Assembly: GCA_003133245.1 (NCBI GenBank)
Contig: PKWM01000026.1
Span: forward strand, 62,001-126,000
Reading direction: 5' to 3'
Origin: Rhodoferax sp.
Lineage (GTDB): Bacteria > Pseudomonadota > Gammaproteobacteria > Burkholderiales > Burkholderiaceae_C
Length of the DNA stretch: 64,000 bases
The notes beneath the pieces are model-generated. The model was given only the letters and a program-made list of their open reading frames with translations, ran no database searches and was not told where the DNA came from. Shown piece after piece: positions 34,253-63,493 of this stretch (positions are counted from its first letter, which is position 1; each line of letters begins with the position of its first letter). The position numbers and the translations under genes are program-made.

Positions 34253-34957
34253 TCAGGGTGCCAAATAAGTCACGAGTTTCTGGCTCAACACATCGGCAGC
34301 TTCCTGCCACGCGACAAAAACGCCAATTGTAGAAAGGTCCACCGTTTGCAGCCCGGCGTAGCCGCAGGGGTTGATGCGTGAGTAGGGTTCCAGGTCCATC
34401 GCGACGTTGAAGGCGACGCCGTGGTAACAGCAGTTTCGGCTGACCTTGATGCCGAGCGCGGCGATCTTGCCCAGGCCTTCGAATTTGGGGTCTGAGCCGA
34501 TCCGCTTCGCTACCGGCTCAGACCCCAATTTTGAAGGCCGCTGCGCCAGCACCAGGTGCGACGCCGGATCATCCAGCCGCACATAGATCCCAGGCGCCCC
34601 CGCCACGCGGTGGCCGGTGACACCAAAATGCAGCAAGGTGCGAATGACGGCCTCCTCCAACCGATAAACATATTCCTTGACAAAATAGCCCCGGCGTTTC
34701 AGGTCGAGCAGCGGATAGGCCACCACCTGGCCCGGGCCGTGGTAAGTGATCTGGCCGCCGCGGTTGGTGGGCACCACCGGGATGCCGCCGGGGTTTAAAA
34801 CATGCTCGGCCTTGCCCCCTAAGCCCTGAGTAAAAACCGGTGCATGCTCGCACAGCCACAGCTCGTCAGGTGTCTCGGCCGTGCGCGCGGCGGTGAAAGC
34901 CTGCATCGCTGCGTAGGTGGGCAGGTAGTCCACCTGGCCGAGGTTGGTGACTTTCAT
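34253..34957 (-). CDS. lipB: LipB, octanoyltransferase, with an in-frame palindromic insertion
   Basis: This 234-aa protein has [20 protein letters not shown], the LipB core, and the catalytic cysteine/lysine region in [20 protein letters not shown] and [14 protein letters not shown]. LipB moves octanoate from acyl carrier protein to lipoyl domains. Between the [10 protein letters not shown] strand and the [11 protein letters not shown] segment there is an extra run of about 22 residues ([20 protein letters not shown]) encoded by a perfect-looking palindromic element at 34474-34539. Its ATG overlaps the stop of the upstream res gene (ATGA). Confidence 0.95.
34474..34539. repeat. REP-like palindrome inserted in frame in lipB
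   Basis: Two 25-nt arms (34474-34498 and 34515-34539) are inverted repeats with 23 of 25 matching, around a 16-nt loop. The arm core is TTGGGGTCTGAGCC / GGCTCAGACCCCAA. At 66 nt (22 codons) it keeps the lipB frame. Related GGGGTC(A/T)GA cores occur in uvrA. Confidence 0.88.
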
Positions 34958-46287: not shown

Positions 46288-46881
46288 ATGAACAAGTCCG
46301 TAGATTTTTATTTTGACTTTGGCAGTCCGGCAGCCTATCTGGCCTGGACCCAGTTGCCCAAGCTCTGCGCCGCTGCCAAAGCCAAAATATCGTGGCGACC
46401 GATGCTGTTGGGCGGCGTCTTTCAGGCCAGTGGCAACCGGGCGCCGATGACGGTGCCGCTCAAGGGCAAGTACCTGTTTGTTGACCTGGCCCGGTTTGCC
46501 AGGCGCTATGGTGTGGCGCTGTGTTTGAATCCGAATTTTCCGATCAACACCGTGACCTTGATGCGCATTGCAGTGGGTTTGCAGATGCGCCAGGATCTGT
46601 GTTTTGAGGACTATTGTGCAGCGATGTTTCGTGCCATTTGGGTCACTGAAAAAAACATGAACGACCCCGGCGTGGTTGTAGCGGTGCTGACCGCTGCGGG
46701 CTTTGATGCCGCTGCACTGCTGGCGCTTGGCAACGAGCAGGCCGTCAAGGACGAGTTAAAGGCGGCGACCACAGCGGCGGTAGAGCGCGGCGTTTTTGGT
46801 GCCCCCACTTTTTTTGTGGCGGAGGAAATGTTTTGGGGCCAGGACCGGCTCGATTTTGTGCGCGAAGCACTGGCCGGTTAA
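46288..46881 (+). CDS. 2-hydroxychromene-2-carboxylate isomerase family (DsbA fold)
   Basis: This 197-aa protein has [20 protein letters not shown] with the glutathione-activating serine in DFGSPAAY, and the C-terminal [20 protein letters not shown] typical of HCCA isomerase/kappa-GST proteins. It probably acts on an aromatic or other thiol-conjugated substrate; the true substrate is not shown. It lies 27 nt after the thiolase and 2 nt before ttcA. Confidence 0.88.
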
Positions 46882-54640: not shown

Positions 54641-55014
54641 TGAGCCAAAAAATACTGGTTGCTGATGATGAACCGAACATCGTTATTTCACTCGAATACC
54701 TGCTCAAGCGCGAAGGCTACACGGTGTTGGTGGCACGCGACGGCCAGGAAGCCCTCGATATGATCGCCACCGAGCACCCCGCCTTGGTGCTGCTCGATGT
54801 GATGATGCCCAAAAAAACCGGTTTTGAGGTTTGCCAGGCGGTGCGCGCGAGCGAAGGCTTGCAGAGCACCAAAATTCTGATGCTGAGCGCCAAAGGGCGT
54901 GACACCGACATTGCCAAAGGGCTGGCATTGGGGGCCGATGCTTACATGACAAAACCGTTTTCAACCCGTGAGTTGGTGCAAAAAGTGGCTGATATGCTGG
55001 GCTCGCCTCCATGA
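54637..55014 (+). CDS. Single-domain response regulator (CheY-like)
   Basis: This 125-aa receiver domain has the acidic pair in ILVADDEPNIVISLEYLLKR, the phospho-acceptor aspartate in ALVLLDVMMPKKTGFEV and the lysine in AYMTKPFSTRELVQKV. It has no output domain. Two adjacent ATGs (54637, 54640) follow AAGGAG. The stop overlaps the next gene (ATGA), tying it to the sensor-exonuclease fusion. Its cognate kinase seems to be the decayed gene just upstream, so the phospho-donor is unclear. Confidence 0.93.
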   Translation: MMSQKILVADDEPNIVISLEYLLKREGYTVLVARDGQEALDMIATEHPALVLLDVMMPKKTGFEVCQAVRASEGLQSTKILMLSAKGRDTDIAKGLALGADAYMTKPFSTRELVQKVADMLGSPP

Positions 55015-57179
55015 AAATAGAGCACCGCTTGCTGCTGCCCATTGCTGCGGCGGGCCTGGCCTTGGCGCTCTGGATCGGTTTGACTCTGGTGCTGGTGGGT
55101 GCCACGCTGGAGAACGTAGAGCGTCAGACTGTGGCTGGCCTGCTGGCGCCGCGTCTGGCCCTTCTGGTGCTCAGTTGGGCGCTGGCATTGGCGCTGGTGG
55201 CGGTGGTTTTGCAGATCCTCTTCAAACGCTATCGGGTGGCACCGGCGCGCTTGCTGGAGCAAACCCGGGTTTTGCTAAGAGCGCAGTTGCCCCAGCAGAT
55301 CGCGCCCACAGGCACACCTGAGCTACGCTTGCTGGCTCAATCAATCAACGAGCTGGCGGTCCAGCGCGACGCTTTGCGCGCCAACATGACGCAGCGCATT
55401 GCCGAGGCGAACGTGGACGTGCAGCAGGAAAAGAATCGTCTGGCCGCCCTGATGGCCGAACTGACGCAGAGCGTGGTGGTATGTAATCTGGAGGGTCGTA
55501 TCCTGCTTTACAACAGCCGGGCGCGCTTGCAGTTTCGTGCGCTCTCCAACACACCGGCGCTGGCCGACGGGGCCGAGCTGATCGGCATCGGGCGCTCCAT
55601 TTACGCCGTCTTTGAGCGCCAGTTGGTGGCGCATGCGCTGGAGGTGATTGAGCTGCGCCTGGCACGCGGCGCTGCCAGCCCGTCCGCGCAGTTTGTGACC
55701 ACCACCCGAACCGGGCAACTGCTGCGGGTGCAGATGGCACCGGTGCGCGCGGTCGATACGTCAGCGCCTCAGCCCGGTGGCATCAATGGCTTTGTACTGA
55801 TGCTCGACAACGTGACGCGCGCTTATGAAGAAGAAACCTTGCGCGACCAGTTGCTGCACGGCCTGACCGAGCGCAGCCGCTCCTCACTGGCCAATATGCA
55901 GGCAGCGGTGGACATGCTGGCTTATCCTGATCTTGACGCGCCGCTGCGCGAGCGCTTTCTGGGCGTGGTGCGCGACGAGGTCAGCGCCATGAGCCAGCGC
56001 ATTGTCGAGCTGGCACAGCGCACCACCCAGGATTTGAAAACCCGCTGGCCGCTGGAGGAAATACTCGGCACCGATTTGCTGGCGGCGGCACAGCGGCGCA
56101 TTCAAGCCCATTGCCAGCGACCGGTGACTTTGGCCGAGCCGTGCGCCGAGTTGTGGCTGCGAGTGGACAGTTTTTCATTGCTACAGGCGCTGGCGTATCT
56201 GGGGCACCGCCTGGTCGAGGAGTTCGAGGTCAAGTACCTGCAGTTGCGTCTGCGAGCAGTGCAGGGGCGCGCGCAGCTCGACCTGATCTGGAGCGGTCAC
56301 ACCGTCAGCAGCGAGACTGTCATGACTTGGGAAATGGCGTCGATGCAATTTGGCAGCGAGGGCACGCCACTGACGGTGCGCGATGTGGTGGAGCGCCACG
56401 GCGGCGAGATGTGGTTTGAGCGCGAACGCGTGCGGCACGAAGCTTTCTTCAGGTTCCTGCTGCCGCTGGCCAACGCGCAAGAGCAGATCGAAGCGGGTCA
56501 AGCGACCCACGACCAGGGGCGGCCCGAGTTTTATGACTTTGATCTGTTTCAGGCCAGCGACGAGAGCCGTGCGCTCGACGAGCGACCTTTGTCCTCATTG
56601 ACGTTGACGGTGTTTGACACTGAAACCACCGGTTTGAACCCGTCCCTGGGCGATGAAATCATCCAGATCGGAGCCGTGCGCATTGTCAACGGCAAGCTGC
56701 GCAAGGGTGAATGCTTTGACCAACTGGTTAATCCGGCGCGCTTGATCCCGGAGGCGACGATCCCGATCCACGGCATCACACAGGACATGGTTCAGGGCCA
56801 GCTTGCCATTGGTGCGGTGCTACCGGCCTTTTATGCGTTCGCGCAGGACACGGTGCTGGTGGCGCATAACGCGGCGTTTGACATGAAGTTTTTGCAACTC
56901 AAAGAGGCCAGCACCGGCCTGGTCTTTCGCCAGCCGGTGCTTGACACTTTGCTGCTGTCGGCACTGGTTCATCCGCAGCAGGAATCGCACCGGCTCGAAG
57001 CCATTGCCGAGCGTTTCAACATTGCCGTGCGCGCCCGCCACACTGCGCTGGGCGACGCCATGGTGACGGCCGAAGTTCTGCTGCGTCTGCTGCCGCTACT
57101 CGCCGAGATGGGGATTCACACCCTGGGCGAAGCGCGCTTTGCCTCGCAGAAGACTTATTACGCCCGGCTCAAATATTAA
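55011..57179 (+). CDS. Degenerate sensor-kinase / DnaQ-type 3'-5' exonuclease fusion
   Basis: This 722-aa protein has two N-terminal membrane helices (LLLPIAAAGLALALWIGLTL; LALLVLSWALALALVAVVLQ), a HAMP-like linker, a PAS-like domain (AELTQSVVVCNLEGRILLYN), then a kinase-like region whose H-box lacks histidine (LHGLTERSRSSLANMQ) and whose ATPase end is altered (VVERHGGEMWFERE). The last about 190 residues are a DEDDh exonuclease: VFDTETTGLNPSLGDEI, LVAHNAAFDMKFLQ and ARHTALGDAMVTAEVL hold all catalytic acids and the histidine. It looks like a membrane-anchored exonuclease with a dead kinase sensor. It is coupled to the response regulator by an ATGA overlap. Confidence 0.88.
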   Translation: MKIEHRLLLPIAAAGLALALWIGLTLVLVGATLENVERQTVAGLLAPRLALLVLSWALALALVAVVLQILFKRYRVAPARLLEQTRVLLRAQLPQQIAPTGTPELRLLAQSINELAVQRDALRANMTQRIAEANVDVQQEKNRLAALMAELTQSVVVCNLEGRILLYNSRARLQFRALSNTPALADGAELIGIGRSIYAVFERQLVAHALEVIELRLARGAASPSAQFVTTTRTGQLLRVQMAPVRAVDTSAPQPGGINGFVLMLDNVTRAYEEETLRDQLLHGLTERSRSSLANMQAAVDMLAYPDLDAPLRERFLGVVRDEVSAMSQRIVELAQRTTQDLKTRWPLEEILGTDLLAAAQRRIQAHCQRPVTLAEPCAELWLRVDSFSLLQALAYLGHRLVEEFEVKYLQLRLRAVQGRAQLDLIWSGHTVSSETVMTWEMASMQFGSEGTPLTVRDVVERHGGEMWFERERVRHEAFFRFLLPLANAQEQIEAGQATHDQGRPEFYDFDLFQASDESRALDERPLSSLTLTVFDTETTGLNPSLGDEIIQIGAVRIVNGKLRKGECFDQLVNPARLIPEATIPIHGITQDMVQGQLAIGAVLPAFYAFAQDTVLVAHNAAFDMKFLQLKEASTGLVFRQPVLDTLLLSALVHPQQESHRLEAIAERFNIAVRARHTALGDAMVTAEVLLRLLPLLAEMGIHTLGEARFASQKTYYARLKY

Positions 57180-57259: not shown

Positions 57260-60200
57260 ATGCCACACGGAATCATCCGCATTCGCGGCGCGCGTCAGCA
57301 CAACCTCAAAAATCTCGACCTGGATATCCGCACCGGCGAGCTCACAGTGATCACGGGTCCGAGTGGCTCGGGCAAGTCGAGTTTGGTGTTTGACACGCTC
57401 TATGCCGAGGGTCAACGGCGTTACGTTGAAACTTTTTCGGCTTATGCACGCCAGTTCCTCGAACGCATGGACAAGCCCGCTGTTGACAAGGTCGAAGGTG
57501 TGCCGCCGGCGATTGCGATTGACCAGACCAACCCAGTGCGCTCCAGCCGCTCCACCGTGGGCACCATGAGCGAACTCAACGATCACTTGAAGCTTTTGTT
57601 TGCGCGCGCGGCGCAACTGTTTGACCGCGACACGGCGCAGCCGGTGCGCCATGACTCGGCAGAGTCGATTTATGCTGAATTGCAACAGCGTGTGGCAGCT
57701 GCCAACGAGGAGCCTAGACTGGCCATCACCTTCCCGGTGGAGTTGCCGGCCAGTGCCACGCCAGAGGAGGTGACGCAATGGCTCTCGGTCAGCGGTTTTA
57801 CCAAGGTACAAGCCGAGCGCGAAGTGGATTTTGGCTCTGACCCCAATTCAGCGGCCACCAAATCAAAGCGCAAAATATTGGACGTCGTAGCCGACCGCTT
57901 CCGGCTGGGCACGGTCGAACGCTCACGCGTGTTGGAAGCCATCGAAGTTGCCCTCAAGCACGGCAGCGGTCAGCTGGCTGTGTATGTTGACGCCGCCGCC
58001 ATCTGGAAATTCTCCACCGGCCTGCATTGCCCCGACAGCGGATTGCGTTACGCCGAGCCGATCGCCTCGGCGTTTTCTTTTAACTCCGCAGTGGGTGCCT
58101 GCGCCACTTGCCGTGGCTTTGGTCGGGTCATCGGGGTTGATTACGCACTGGTGATTCCGAACCCAAAATTGACGCTCCGCGCCGGTGCCGTCAAGCCGAT
58201 GCAAACCCCGGCCTGGCAGGAGTGTCAGGACGATCTGATGCGCCACGCCGAAGCGGAGGGCATTCCACGTGACACGCCCTGGTACCAGCTTAACGCCGAG
58301 CAGCAGCACTGGGTGGTGAATGGCTCGCCGCACTGGAAGGGCAAATGGAATCAGCACTGGTTTGGCATCAAGCGCTTTTTTGAGTACCTGGAGACCAAAG
58401 CCTACAAAATGCATATCCGCGTGCTGCTCTCCAAGTACCGCAGCTACACGCCCTGCCCGGCCTGTGGCGGCGCACGGCTGAAGACCGAGAGCCTGTTGTG
58501 GCGCATGGGCAGCAAGGCCGATGCCGACGCTGTGCTGGATCCGACCCAACGTTTTATGCCGGTGGGGGTGAAGTGGTCGCGCGCACAACTTGAAGCGCTG
58601 CCGGGCTTGTGTCTGCATGACTTGATGCTGTTGCCGCTTGACAAGCTGCGGCGATTTTTTGAACGCTTGCAAATGACGGGTTTTGATCCTGCATGGGTGG
58701 CTTCTGACAAAGGTCAGGCACAAGCCCTCAAACTGCTGTTCGAAGAGGTCAGCACGCGCCTCAGTTACCTGTGCGAGGTCGGCATCGGCTACCTCACGCT
58801 GGACCGGCAGAGCCGCACCCTCAGTGGTGGTGAAGTGCAGCGCATCAACCTCACCACGGCGCTGGGCACTTCGCTGGTCAACACCTTGTTTGTGCTGGAT
58901 GAGCCCAGCATCGGCCTGCATCCGCGCGACATGCAGCGCATCATCCTTGCAATGCAGCGCCTGCGTGATGCGGGCAACACGCTGGTGGTGGTGGAGCACG
59001 ACCCGGCAGTGATGCTGGCGGCGGACCGCATCATCGACATGGGGCCGGGGCCGGGCGAGCGCGGCGGCCAAATCGTGTTCGATGGCAGCACTGAAGATTT
59101 GCGTCACGCCGACACCTTGACGGGTGCTTACCTTGGCGGGCGCAAGCAGATTGGCATGGGTTTCAAACGGCTGGTCGCAAGCAACACGCCGCGCCTGGTT
59201 CTGGAGGGTGCACGCGAGCACAATCTGAAAAACATTTCGGTCGAATTTCCGTTGCAACGCTTGGTCTGTGTGACAGGCGTGAGCGGTTCCGGCAAATCGA
59301 CACTGATGCAGGACATTCTGGCACCGGCCCTGAAGCGTCACTTTGGCAAAGCGTCAGAGGCACCCGGTACGTTTGATCGACTGCTCGGTGCCGAGCAGCT
59401 CAGCGACGTGGTGTTTGTGGATCAATCACCGATTGGAAAAACGGCGCGCTCCAATCCGGTCAGCTACGTCGGTGCCTGGGATGCCATCCGTCAGATTTTC
59501 GCCAATGCGCCGCTGTCAAGGCAGCGTGGCTACAGCGCAAGCAAATTCAGCTTCAACAACGGCGACGGCCGCTGCCCGACCTGTGGCGGCTCCGGCTTTG
59601 AGCACGTCGAGATGCAGTTCCTCAGCGATGTCTATCTGCGCTGCCCCGATTGCGACGGCAAGCGCTACCGACCGGAGATATTGGAAGTCACGATTGAGAG
59701 AAGAACAATCTTGGGGAAAGAAACTCATGGATTGCCGCACTACGCTCGCAATGACGGAGCTGAATCGGGGTCGGATCCCAATTCGGGGCAGGGCTTGAGT
59801 GCTGGCCAAAACAACAACACCGATTTGGCAAAACCCCAAGTCCAGGGATCCGACCCCGATTCAGCGGACCCCCACCCAGCGCTTAATGTCGCCGACATTC
59901 TTAATCTCACGGTTAGCGAAGCAGCCACTTTTTTTGCCGCTGACCGTGACGTGATTCGCGCCCTGCAGCCGATCGTCGATGTGGGTCTGGACTACGTCAA
60001 ACTTGGCCAGCCGGTACCGACGCTTTCGGGCGGCGAAGCGCAGCGTCTCAAGCTCGCTGGCTTTCTGGCCGAAGCTGCCAGGAGCAGCAGCGCCAGCCGT
60101 CAAATGACGGCCAAGCGAGGCACGCTGTTCATGTTTGATGAGCCCACCACCGGCCTGCATTTCGACGACATTGCCAAGTTAATGCGCTCGCTGCGCAAAC

Positions 60201-63200
60201 TGCTTGAGGTTGGTCATTCGCTGATCGTGATCGAACACAACCTGGATGTGATTCGTGCCAGTGACTGGTTGATTGACCTCGGGCCCGAAGGCGGTGAAGC
60301 CGGAGGCGCGGTGGTGGCTTTTGGCACACCGCAAGACCTGCTATCCCACCCAACTTCCCACACCGGAAAAGCCCTGCGCGACTACGACAGCACGTTGGGA
60401 TTGGGTACCCTCGTTGCCCAGGACCCAAGGCTGAACTATCTCCCTCACCCGTCATTGCGAGGAGCGCAACGACATGGCAATCTACGAAGTCCGAATCATG
60501 GATTGCCGCGCTACGCTCGCAATGACGAAGAGGGCGTGGCAGAATGCATCCAGATCATCAACGCGCGCGAGCACAACCTCAAGTCTTTGAGCGTCAACAT
60601 CCCGCGCGGCAAATTCAGCGTCATCACCGGCGTCTCGGGTTCTGGCAAATCAACGCTCGCTTTTGACATCCTTTTCAACGAAGGCCAGCGCCGTTACCTG
60701 GAGTCGCTCAACGCCTATGCCCGCTCCATCGTGCAACCCGCCGGTCGGCCCGATGTTGATGCGGTCTATGGCATCCCGCCAACGGTGGCGATCGAGCAAC
60801 GTCTGAGTCGTGGTGGCCGCAAATCGACCGTCGGCACCAGCACCGAAGTCTGGCATTTTCTGCGCTTGCTGTATGTCAAGCTCGGCACCCAGCACTGCAT
60901 CCACGACGGCATGCCGGTGGCACCGCAAACGTTTGAGAGCATTGCCGCGCAACTGCTGAAAAACTTTTCAGGTCAACAGATCGGCTTGCTCTCACCCCTG
61001 GTGATGAATCGCAAAGGTGTTTATACCGAGCTGGCCGACTGGGCGCAAACACGGGGTTTCACGCACCTGCGCGTCGATGGCAACTTTTTACCCACCACCG
61101 GTTTCCCGCGCCTGGACCGTTTCAAGGAACACACGATTGAGTTGCCGGTGCAGAGCCTCACCGTGTTGCCAGCGCAAGAAGCCCAACTGCGCGCGGCACT
61201 CGCGGCAGCGCTGACGCACGGCAAAGGTGTGCTGCACGTGCTGAGCAATTTAAGCGGCTTGCATGCAGCTATGCTGGCAGGAAGCTCGACGGCGGCCATT
61301 GGCCGGGTGAACGCATTCTCCACCGAGCGCGCCTGCCCGCTGTGCCACACCAGCTACGCCGAGCTGGACCCGCGGCTGTTCTCCTACAACAGCAAGCACG
61401 GCTGGTGCCCGGATTGCGTCGGCACCGGCGTCAAGTTGACGCGTGAACAGCGCAAGGTGTTTGATGACTCGGTGCAGAGTGACGACAACAAAGGTCGCGA
61501 GCAGACCTTTGCCGAGCCGGAGGTGGAAGACCTGGTGGATACCGTGTGTCCCACTTGCCACGGCACACGTCTCAACGCCATGGCCCGCGCCGTTAAATTT
61601 GGCGCGCTGAGCCCTCACCCCAGCCCTCTCCCAGGCGGAGAGGGAGCAAACAGCCCGACTCAGGAATTGGCATTTCCCCCTCGCCCTTTGGGAGAGGGTT
61701 GGGGTGAGGGCGTGTCTATCACCGAGCTGGCGCGCCTGAGTGTCACGGACCTTCACCGCTGGGTTGAGACGCTTCAAGCCAAGCATCGCTTGAGTCAACG
61801 CGAGCGCGACATTGCGCGTGATTTGATTCCGGAAATCAAAGGCCGACTGGCATTTTTGGAACAGGTTGGCCTGGGCTACTTGACGCTGGATCGGGGCGCA
61901 CCGTCTTTGAGCGGCGGTGAGGCGCAGCGCATCCGCCTGGCGGCGCAACTCGGCAGCAATCTGCAAGGCGTCTGCTATGTGCTCGATGAGCCGACCATCG
62001 GACTGCACCACCGCGACAACCAGATTTTGCTCGGCGCGTTGCAACAATTGAGTGACCAGGGCAACACTTTGGTGGTAGTGGAACACGACGAGGCCACCAT
62101 CCGCCAGGCCGAGCACATCATTGACATAGGACCTGGCGCCGGCCAGCGCGGCGGGCGGCTGGTTGCCGAGGGCTCGCTGGCTGAGATCATGCAAGCACCA
62201 GACTCGCAGACCGGGCGCTATTTGCTGCATGCGATGCAGCATCCGCTGCAGGCCAGGCGACCTGTTTTCGATTTTGGTGAGCCAGCGGCTGTAGTGAATT
62301 TGGCAAAACCCCAAGTCCAGGGGTCAGATTCCATTTTCGCCCCCGACCCTTCGAAGAAGAAAAAATCTAAAGCGAAATTGGACTCTGACCCCAATTTCAC
62401 GGTTCCAGAAACACCACTCTGGCTCGCCGTCACCAACGCCAATCTGCACAACCTGCAAAACATTACAGTCGAAATTCCCCTGGGCCGTCTGGTTGCCATC
62501 ACCGGCGTTTCCGGTTCCGGCAAATCCACCCTGGCGCGCGATGTATTGCTGGCCAATGTGCAGACTGCGGTGCATCAATGCAGCACAAAGGCCGGTCGCG
62601 ACGCCTTGGCCGCTGGCGAGCAAATTAACTGGATCGGCTGCGCAGAAATGACGGGTTTTGAGTCAATCGATCGTGTACTCGAAGTCGATCAAACCCCGAT
62701 CGGCAAAACTCCGCGTTCCTGTCCTGCCACCTATATTGGCTTTTGGGACATCATCCGCAAATTGTTTGCTGACACACTCGAGGCCAAAGCGCGTGGTTAC
62801 GCCGCCAACCGGTTCAGTTTCAACACCGGCGATGGCCGCTGTGCAGGTTGCGAAGGGCAGGGCATCCGCACCATCGCCATGAGTTTCTTGCCCGACGTGA
62901 AAGTGCTGTGCGAGAGCTGCAAGGGTGCGCGTTTCAACCCTGAAACACTGGCTGTCACCTGGCGCGGCAAGAACATTGGCGACGTGTTGCAAATGGAAGT
63001 CGACGAAGCTACTGCTTTCTTCGCCGCCATGCCCAAGCTCAGACACCCCTTGCAACTTCTCAAAGACGTGGGCCTGGGTTATTTGAAGCTGGGGCAGCCC
63101 TCGCCCACGCTCAGTGGCGGTGAGGCGCAGCGCCTCAAACTGGTGACTGAGCTCGCCAAGGTGCGCGACGATATTGCTCGCCGTGGCCAGCGGGCGCCTC

Positions 63201-63493
63201 ACACCCTGTATGTGCTCGATGAACCCACCGTGGGGCTGCATATGGCTGATGTCGAAAAACTCATCAAGGTGCTGCACCGCCTGGTTGATGGCGGCCACAG
63301 TGTGTTGGTGATCGAGCATGACCTTGACGTGATTGCCGAAGCCGACTGGGTAATTGACCTTGGCCCTGATGGTGGCAACGCGGGGGGTTGCGTGGTAGCG
63401 GCGACCACGCCCGAGGGTGTGGTGAAGCGGGGCACGCCTACCGGCCTTGCGCTCGCAGGGGTTCTGGTTGCTGGTCGGGCTTTGGCAGTCTAG
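57260..63493 (+). CDS. uvrA: Tandem double-length UvrA-family ABC ATPase (2077 aa)
   Basis: About twice the length of ordinary UvrA, it is two UvrA units fused head to tail. Four Walker A loops (GPSGSGKSSL near residue 35, GVSGSGKSTL near 673, near 1128 and near 1752) and four LSGGE signatures are present, with zinc-finger cysteines such as YTPCPACGGARLKTES, CPTCGGSGFEHV and CAGCEGQGIRTIAM. UvrA recognises bulky DNA lesions with UvrB; the double form is a divergent paralogue, and the ordinary uvrA may lie elsewhere. Five in-frame insertions of palindromic repeats (about residues 192, 823-868, 1064-1089, 1451-1484, 1680-1711) fall in linkers and loops. ATG 57260 follows AGGAAAG. Confidence 0.93.
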   Translation: MPHGIIRIRGARQHNLKNLDLDIRTGELTVITGPSGSGKSSLVFDTLYAEGQRRYVETFSAYARQFLERMDKPAVDKVEGVPPAIAIDQTNPVRSSRSTVGTMSELNDHLKLLFARAAQLFDRDTAQPVRHDSAESIYAELQQRVAAANEEPRLAITFPVELPASATPEEVTQWLSVSGFTKVQAEREVDFGSDPNSAATKSKRKILDVVADRFRLGTVERSRVLEAIEVALKHGSGQLAVYVDAAAIWKFSTGLHCPDSGLRYAEPIASAFSFNSAVGACATCRGFGRVIGVDYALVIPNPKLTLRAGAVKPMQTPAWQECQDDLMRHAEAEGIPRDTPWYQLNAEQQHWVVNGSPHWKGKWNQHWFGIKRFFEYLETKAYKMHIRVLLSKYRSYTPCPACGGARLKTESLLWRMGSKADADAVLDPTQRFMPVGVKWSRAQLEALPGLCLHDLMLLPLDKLRRFFERLQMTGFDPAWVASDKGQAQALKLLFEEVSTRLSYLCEVGIGYLTLDRQSRTLSGGEVQRINLTTALGTSLVNTLFVLDEPSIGLHPRDMQRIILAMQRLRDAGNTLVVVEHDPAVMLAADRIIDMGPGPGERGGQIVFDGSTEDLRHADTLTGAYLGGRKQIGMGFKRLVASNTPRLVLEGAREHNLKNISVEFPLQRLVCVTGVSGSGKSTLMQDILAPALKRHFGKASEAPGTFDRLLGAEQLSDVVFVDQSPIGKTARSNPVSYVGAWDAIRQIFANAPLSRQRGYSASKFSFNNGDGRCPTCGGSGFEHVEMQFLSDVYLRCPDCDGKRYRPEILEVTIERRTILGKETHGLPHYARNDGAESGSDPNSGQGLSAGQNNNTDLAKPQVQGSDPDSADPHPALNVADILNLTVSEAATFFAADRDVIRALQPIVDVGLDYVKLGQPVPTLSGGEAQRLKLAGFLAEAARSSSASRQMTAKRGTLFMFDEPTTGLHFDDIAKLMRSLRKLLEVGHSLIVIEHNLDVIRASDWLIDLGPEGGEAGGAVVAFGTPQDLLSHPTSHTGKALRDYDSTLGLGTLVAQDPRLNYLPHPSLRGAQRHGNLRSPNHGLPRYARNDEEGVAECIQIINAREHNLKSLSVNIPRGKFSVITGVSGSGKSTLAFDILFNEGQRRYLESLNAYARSIVQPAGRPDVDAVYGIPPTVAIEQRLSRGGRKSTVGTSTEVWHFLRLLYVKLGTQHCIHDGMPVAPQTFESIAAQLLKNFSGQQIGLLSPLVMNRKGVYTELADWAQTRGFTHLRVDGNFLPTTGFPRLDRFKEHTIELPVQSLTVLPAQEAQLRAALAAALTHGKGVLHVLSNLSGLHAAMLAGSSTAAIGRVNAFSTERACPLCHTSYAELDPRLFSYNSKHGWCPDCVGTGVKLTREQRKVFDDSVQSDDNKGREQTFAEPEVEDLVDTVCPTCHGTRLNAMARAVKFGALSPHPSPLPGGEGANSPTQELAFPPRPLGEGWGEGVSITELARLSVTDLHRWVETLQAKHRLSQRERDIARDLIPEIKGRLAFLEQVGLGYLTLDRGAPSLSGGEAQRIRLAAQLGSNLQGVCYVLDEPTIGLHHRDNQILLGALQQLSDQGNTLVVVEHDEATIRQAEHIIDIGPGAGQRGGRLVAEGSLAEIMQAPDSQTGRYLLHAMQHPLQARRPVFDFGEPAAVVNLAKPQVQGSDSIFAPDPSKKKKSKAKLDSDPNFTVPETPLWLAVTNANLHNLQNITVEIPLGRLVAITGVSGSGKSTLARDVLLANVQTAVHQCSTKAGRDALAAGEQINWIGCAEMTGFESIDRVLEVDQTPIGKTPRSCPATYIGFWDIIRKLFADTLEAKARGYAANRFSFNTGDGRCAGCEGQGIRTIAMSFLPDVKVLCESCKGARFNPETLAVTWRGKNIGDVLQMEVDEATAFFAAMPKLRHPLQLLKDVGLGYLKLGQPSPTLSGGEAQRLKLVTELAKVRDDIARRGQRAPHTLYVLDEPTVGLHMADVEKLIKVLHRLVDGGHSVLVIEHDLDVIAEADWVIDLGPDGGNAGGCVVAATTPEGVVKRGTPTGLALAGVLVAGRALAV
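57833..57850. repeat. Half-element GGCTCTGACCCC in uvrA
   Basis: GGCTCTGACCCCAATTCA matches one arm of the lipB and uvrA palindromes (core CTGACCCCAATT). It encodes GSDPNS. No partner arm is seen close by, so it may be a worn copy. Confidence 0.6.
59727..59756. repeat. Half-palindrome of the GATTGCC...CGCAATGAC family in uvrA
   Basis: It holds ATTGCCGCACTACGCTCGC followed by AATGACG and encodes HGLPHYARND. It is nearly identical to the right arm of the complete element at 60451-60526 (HGLPRYARND). Confidence 0.82.
59762..59862. repeat. Palindromic element with perfect 18-bp arms in uvrA
   Basis: The arms GAATCGGGGTCGGATCCC (59762-59779) and GGGATCCGACCCCGATTC (59845-59862) are perfect inverted repeats. 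Between them lies a 22-nt stretch (59824-59845) that recurs exactly at 62299-62320. It is translated as ESGSDPNSG...AKPQVQGSDPDS. Confidence 0.9.
60451..60526. repeat. Palindromic element GTCATTGCGAG...CTCGCAATGAC between the two UvrA units
   Basis: The 11-nt ends are perfect inverted repeats, with further inner pairing (GGCAATC / GATTGCC). It is translated as SLRGAQRHGNLRSPN then HGLPRYARND and lies in the linker joining the two UvrA halves. Confidence 0.9.
61611..61711. repeat. Palindromic element GCCCTCACCCC...GGGGTGAGGGC in uvrA
   Basis: Arms at 61611-61633 and 61689-61711 match in 22 of 23 positions. It is a third, unrelated repeat family, known to me as a common intergenic repeat. Here it is translated as LSPHPSPLPGGEG and PPRPLGEGWGEGV, after the CHGTRLNAMAR zinc-finger region of the second unit. 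Confidence 0.9.
62299..62392. repeat. Palindromic GGGGTCAGA element before the last ATPase module of uvrA
   Basis: Arms at 62320-62340 and 62372-62392 match in 19 of 21 positions (core GGGGTCAGA / TCTGACCCC). The 22 nt before the left arm repeat 59824-59845 exactly. It is translated as LAKPQVQGSDSIFAPD...LDSDPNFT. Confidence 0.88.

Follow-up and report, generated by a model that had tools for sequence, protein, structure and literature searches.

Palindromic repeats of several families in recurrent variable loops of a tandem uvrA gene in Rhodoferax and related Burkholderiales

Rickettsia palindromic elements (RPE) are in-frame palindromic repeats that occur in many unrelated proteins. REPs have likewise been described inside genes of several species, many of them repair genes, in the available parts of the report by Di Nocera et al. 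(2013; PMC3733652), according to which O. terrae carries REPs twice in each of two uvrA genes, a Thioalkalivibrio uvrA is similarly marked, and REP-tagged repair genes may raise mutation rates. Given that REPs in uvrA were reported there in 2013, the kind of arrangement described here is known. For yeast genes, the available part of another study presents arm homogenisation and spacer inversion as marks of template switching between inverted repeats (PMC8604942). Our literature searches on tandem UvrA in Burkholderia found nothing on this gene or its repeats, those on palindromes in Rhodoferax or Limnohabitans found nothing on the tandem uvrA or its repeats, and those on mobile hairpins with a conserved loop and a variable stem found nothing close; in the available part of a Rhodoferax ferrireducens paper (PMC2755013), CRISPR is the only repeat mentioned.

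The window, that is, the whole 64-kb stretch of DNA analysed in this study, belongs to a draft genome of 2.94 Mb in 52 contigs. Positions 57260-63493 on the plus strand form a single open frame of 2077 codons (2077 aa) with no internal stops. In profile searches this frame matched NCBIfam NF001503/TIGR00630 in five stretches; UvrA family models span both units of the tandem protein, unit 2 being unmatched at model positions 305-400, and each unit matches solved UvrA chains. The genome contains three UvrA-like genes, namely a canonical single gene (contig 18), the tandem gene (contig 40), and a third (contig 11) whose frame lacks UvrA model positions 116-262. The nearest named records of the tandem gene come mainly from Rhodoferax metagenome assemblies (74-77% identity in the best segment), and tandem UvrA genes are present across Burkholderiales. 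By eye, the frame upstream of uvrA, at 55011-57179, looks like a fusion of a sensor-like protein with a DnaQ-type exonuclease. The features of the tandem gene, with the evidence for each, are as follows.

57260..63493, plus strand: tandem uvrA, two UvrA units in one frame (ORF, NCBIfam, matches to solved UvrA chains)
57812..57877, plus strand: loop S1; 57833-57859 is the right half of a family A element (repeat search, alignment)
58661..58726, plus strand: loop S2, without a recognised repeat here but with family A, B, C or D in relatives
59690..59884, plus strand: loop S3, in a hairpin after what we take to be the third zinc-finger region (alignment, solved UvrA chains)
59725..59757, plus strand: half of a family B (CGTC-type) element in S3 (repeat search, genome copies)
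59759..59865, plus strand: full family A element in S3 with perfect 21-bp arms (inverted repeat, genome copies, fold)
60386..60547, plus strand: loop S4, linking the two UvrA units; contains a dimer of family B, about 60450-60527 (sequence, genome copies, alignment, fold)
61595..61717, plus strand: loop S5; 61611-61711 is a family C element (inverted repeat, genome copies, fold)
62261..62419, plus strand: loop S6, a linker that precedes the last ATPase module; 62296-62400 is a family A-type element (inverted repeat, genome copies, fold)

Palindromic repeats of families A, B and C lie in frame in five of the six variable loops. S1 falls in a region that we take to align with the UvrB-interaction part of UvrA, S2 presumably follows the signature region, S5 is the unit-2 counterpart of the S3 hairpin as judged by alignment and solved UvrA chains, and S6 is assumed to separate the two ATPase halves of unit 2. 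A preliminary description, made from the sequence, had claimed in-frame repeats of at least three families in an uninterrupted tandem UvrA frame, after zinc-finger regions, in the linker between the units and before the last ATPase module; the frame is intact, and families A, B and C all have further copies in the genome. The palindrome that it placed at 59762-59862 is real, but its perfect arms measure 21 bp (59759-59779 and 59845-59865) instead of the 18 bp given. Its elements at 60451-60526, 61611-61711 and 62299-62392 were recovered as the CGTC-type dimer in S4, as a family C element with 39-nt arms (61611-61649 and 61673-61711, 82%), and as an element with 21-nt arms (62320-62340 and 62372-62392, 90%), respectively, and the partial copies that it noticed near 57833 and 59727 proved to be halves of family A and family B elements (the latter from 59725). 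In RNA folding, the four full elements gave z-scores of -7.19 (S3), -5.65 (S4 dimer), -7.12 (S5) and -6.06 (S6), and none of 200 shuffles was equally stable for any of them. An inverted-repeat scan of the window recovered five with 16 or more matched bases, three of them within the tandem uvrA; a weaker one at 46309-46389 (16 of 17 bases) belongs to no known family. No Rfam family reached its gathering score in the window.

The three families differ in their ends. Family A ends read AATTGGGGTCAGA..., and a GTAG tag was absent from the S3 element ends and from the flanks of the RAYT-type gene described below. Family B reads CGTCATTGCGAG at 60450, with the inverse at the other end of the dimer, and shares with CGTC REPs a CGTC tag followed by a stem starting AT. 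Family C reads CCCTCACCCCAGCCCTCTCCC and is of the CCCTCACCCC type.

We consider it likely that a working tandem UvrA has six surface loops that take up palindromes, with selection as the filter, a transposase moving family A, and template switching reshaping the arms. Small palindromic elements of several families would land around the genome; copies in loops that have an open, hydrophilic reading frame would survive, and others would be removed by selection. Family A would owe its mobility to a RAYT-type transposase encoded by the gene that it borders, and hairpin arms would afterwards be kept alike by polymerase template switching. With respect to the copies of L040 and L062, the arms of the S3 element have changed in pairs, and they match each other perfectly.

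Tandem UvrA proteins were aligned for 105 of 109 frames (L064, L065, L232 and L236, each shorter than 1700 aa, were left out). Loops S1-S6 make up 10% of the length of these 105 Burkholderiales genes, yet they contain 59 of the 65 inverted repeats classed as strong (16 or more matched bases), leaving 6 outside; at 18 or more matched bases, 50 of 52 were in loops. Codon-shuffled genes yielded 0.225 inverted repeats per gene at a looser setting. When 55 kb of loop sequence and 568 kb outside the loops were searched for motifs, 48 of 55 family A matches, 26 of 27 family B matches and 63 of 66 family C matches were in loops, and the presence of the three families requires at least 48 gains plus losses on the tree. 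Among 27 outgroup genes (Burkholderiaceae- and Rubrivivax-side), only L205 contained a strong inverted repeat, and the loops of the repeat-free outgroup genes are short. The preliminary description had named repeat-free homologues with linkers of equal length as evidence against it; many loops of such homologues are much shorter (in L206, S1, S2, S3, S5 and S6 measure 10, 13, 9, 6 and 7 aa), but in some long loops of relatives, such as a 24-aa S5 loop in L042, L046 and L055, no repeat is recognisable, so that a repeat origin is not proven for all length variation. Within the genus, strong inverted repeats numbered 34 over the 54,860 aa of 27 tandem genes, compared with 2 over the 18,127 aa of 17 single UvrA frames (one-sided p 0.003); these control frames were untrimmed and their starts are not proven, and one of the two repeats, at residue 18, perhaps precedes the true start.

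The results support the earlier reading, which likened the inserts to the palindromic elements of Rickettsia, that this protein either tolerates REP-like insertions or is a hot spot for them. Were it a hot spot, the loop DNA itself would attract elements and selection would play a minor part; such a preference would explain why the same six positions were struck repeatedly and why elements insert beside or into each other, as with the family B half and the family A element in S3. We nonetheless regard a hot spot as unlikely, given that at least three families with unrelated ends are common to the same loops, that the insertion positions are loops in the protein model, and that other genes were struck at different sequences. 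Because unrelated families share the same loops, we argue for tolerance, rather than target preference, as the probable cause, and the data fit small mobile palindromes tolerated in flexible loops.

Outside the loops, dN/dS ranged from 0.018 to 0.131 in 19 pairs, and the tandem uvrA is under purifying selection there; the loops evolve much faster than the rest. For the window gene dN/dS was 0.085-0.096, a rough value because dS is near or above 1. A decaying gene or an assembly artefact might be suspected, since the assembly is a 52-contig draft and the presence of a canonical uvrA could make the tandem gene dispensable. This seems hardly credible when dN/dS is 0.02-0.13, when 76 of 80 named loci have an intact frame with four SGGE motifs (the remaining four have three motifs and shorter frames), and when loop expansions are also found in isolates of Variovorax and Limnohabitans and in the single-contig assemblies G010 and G036. 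We therefore conclude that the gene, whose decay had been raised as an objection, is not decayed, and its protein is presumably produced.

Of the 48 family A motifs in loops, 47 are read in the GSD/SDP frame, and the family B motif CATTGCGAG was in the same frame in all 16 loop matches. Since four of the six frames of a full family A element are free of stops, this choice of frame exceeds stop avoidance. AlphaFold2 models that covered S1, S2, S3, S5 and S6, built from shallow alignments of 38 and 40 sequences, had a mean pLDDT of 76.2 for each unit. Values below 50 were obtained at residues 195-199 (S1), 477-481 (S2) and 818-871 (S3) of unit 1, and at 358-388 (S5) and 581-623 (S6) in the numbering of the unit-2 model. 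The models thus support flexibility or disorder of the five loops without proving it, because several segments outside the loops likewise fall below 50.

The elements are not confined to this gene. With each element itself counted, the genome contained at least 48 matches to 59727-59862, at least 54 to 60451-60530, 27 to 61605-61716 and at least 13 to 62296-62400, which merged into at least 84 clusters, four of them in the tandem uvrA. For a gene of this size 0.04-0.19 elements are expected; the corresponding enrichment P ranges from 1.4e-7 to 5.0e-5 with the number of other copies taken as genic, although the binomial and Poisson values are computed as if related sequences were independent. 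A profile search of the whole genome with PF01797 (Y1_Tnp) gave one match, a 234-aa frame. This RAYT-type transposase gene is bordered by AATTGGGGTCAGATTCCAATT and its reverse complement, which are the family A ends, and no PF01797-type gene flanked by family B or C was found. A RAYT gene, for which the preliminary description had suggested a search, therefore exists, but it is flanked by family A only. From this arrangement, family A is most likely moved by the transposase whose gene it borders.

Frames over a repeat cluster numbered 33 at 160 aa or longer and 26 at 240 aa or longer. Pfam scanning of 20 of these 26 gave matches at 1e-5 for 19 and none for one. By coordinates, the repeat lay inside the span of one model in 10 of the 20 scanned frames (miaA, a P-type ATPase gene, purL, ygiQ, mnmA, proA, hypF, lnt, an APH-family kinase gene and prmC). 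In 5 others it separates domains or repeats, and in 4 it falls beyond the span of the model, among which the LysR case perhaps reflects a wrong start; NCBIfam was concordant with Pfam for the frames rescanned. Family B uses additional reading frames in other genes. A further example lies in the window itself:

34253..34957, minus strand: lipB; 34474-34539 is a family A palindrome in frame (inverted repeat, translation, NCBIfam LipB)

Separately, an MmeI-like methyltransferase gene (L082, contig 36) has a family C and a family D element, both in frame. Because core genes elsewhere carry repeats in frame, the phenomenon is genome-wide, with the tandem uvrA as its densest case. The spread of inserts over metabolic and translation genes also speaks against a further proposal, that the inserts are adaptive, with mRNA hairpins or added peptides tuning UvrA and perhaps raising mutation rates. 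The hairpins are indeed very stable, and REPs occur in repair genes of several species in the available part of the earlier report (PMC3733652). Adaptive tuning is nevertheless quite improbable to us, as close relatives lack inserts or have other families at the same place and the loops are fast-evolving.

Relatives carry a fourth family, D, a hairpin with a conserved core, CCTCA...ATCGT, of about 25-40 nt; the core pattern had no match in the window with up to 3 mismatches allowed. The strict core occurred 14 times in 9 of 60 genus genomes, 11 times in tandem uvrA and otherwise in two leucyl-tRNA synthetase (LeuS) genes and one oxidoreductase-like frame, named by eye; in the wider family it occurred 3 times in 2 of 299 genomes. 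A related core pattern gave 99 matches in 33 of 60 genomes (reversed control, 0), and 28 of 31 such places had complementary arms (score of 7 or more); at 24 of these 28, the longest stop-free frame across the place was at most 211 aa. The 33 D copies retained for comparison were filtered at an arm score of 8 or more, so that their complementarity is partly chosen and 28 of 31 is the unbiased count. A looser D pattern had 28 matches outside loops, and its counts were therefore excluded from the main argument. Family D as a catalogued Rfam RNA was ruled out for that library, in which five loci with family D or long loops gave only sub-threshold miRNA and sRNA matches. By eye, L286-L292, L325 and L326 are leucyl-tRNA synthetase genes with one loop, 11 to 38 aa long, that has taken up family D; this is seen in several Rhodoferax-like genomes and, outside the genus, in a single genome of another. 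At L256-L284 a D-like hairpin with the core CCTCATACTGGAGTACCAGAAATCGTC recurs, mostly outside long frames in the genus, and its arms form a few subfamilies.

The arms of family D are complementary to each other within a locus and are not like those of other loci. Between loci, the outer arms of 17 coding copies were alike at 6.72 of 12 positions versus 6.61 in shuffles, whereas family A arms in the same comparison gave 10.90 versus 6.13. The two arms nevertheless vary in concert: among four orthologous S4 copies, changes on both sides were seen in 23 of 117 paired comparisons, and 27 of 144 were unpaired in at least one. In four comparisons a core-less relative retained one arm: L045 shares the left arm with its sister gene L059 (90% identical) at both S2 and S4; at S6, L054 has the right arm of L055; and in LeuS, L292 resembles the left arm of L288 (22 of 30 LeuS loci were readable, 14 with an 11-aa loop). 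Moreover, L055 and L059 have common arms at S6 with the core in opposite orientations. We read this as template switching that would make or re-make the D arms, although a core-less relative with one arm may be the deletion product of an older insert. It is conceivable, and we propose it only tentatively, that the D core acquires its arms from adjacent host DNA, one flank being copied inverted at insertion or by later template switching. If so, family D would be a self-arming palindrome, each coding copy having its own near-perfect palindrome, giving new loop peptides in proteins such as UvrA and leucyl-tRNA synthetase.

With six loops struck repeatedly by several families in one conserved enzyme that has many sequenced relatives, this gene lends itself to studying how protein sequence arises from mobile palindromes, how site and frame come under selection, and how coding palindromes are remodelled by polymerase template switching. 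The old question of whether REPs single out repair genes can be put to the test by setting tandem UvrA against single UvrA and LeuS within the same set of genomes. As far as our searches show, the tandem gene as host, the six-loop map with several families, and family D are new. Like the REPs in the available parts of the Di Nocera report (PMC3733652), the repeats studied here are short palindromes with genome copies, in frame in uvrA and other genes, in proposed loops or linkers; unlike them, they lie in a tandem UvrA, with at least three families in the one gene and six recurrent loops over 105 relatives, and the motifs seen in families A and C match neither the GTAG nor the CGTC type. As in the TIR/RAYT systems that the same parts describe (PMC3733652), a Y1_Tnp gene is bordered on both sides by family A in inverted orientation, and many family A copies stand apart from it, but family A lacks the GTAG tag and has copies inside coding genes. 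Arm homogenisation and spacer inversion in coding sequence, here in families A and D, recall yeast template switching, which in the available part of that study involves short arms and spacers of 2-5 substitutions (PMC8604942), whereas here the arms are of 14-37 bp on inserted bacterial elements. The available part of a study of Nematomorpha mitochondria (PMC6649704) describes long inverted repeats in genes that likewise stay functional, but there both arms encode conserved protein, while here the arms lie in variable loops. As with RPE, in-frame palindromic repeats occur here in many unrelated proteins; unlike RPE, they do so in free-living Burkholderiales relatives and with a strong concentration in one gene.
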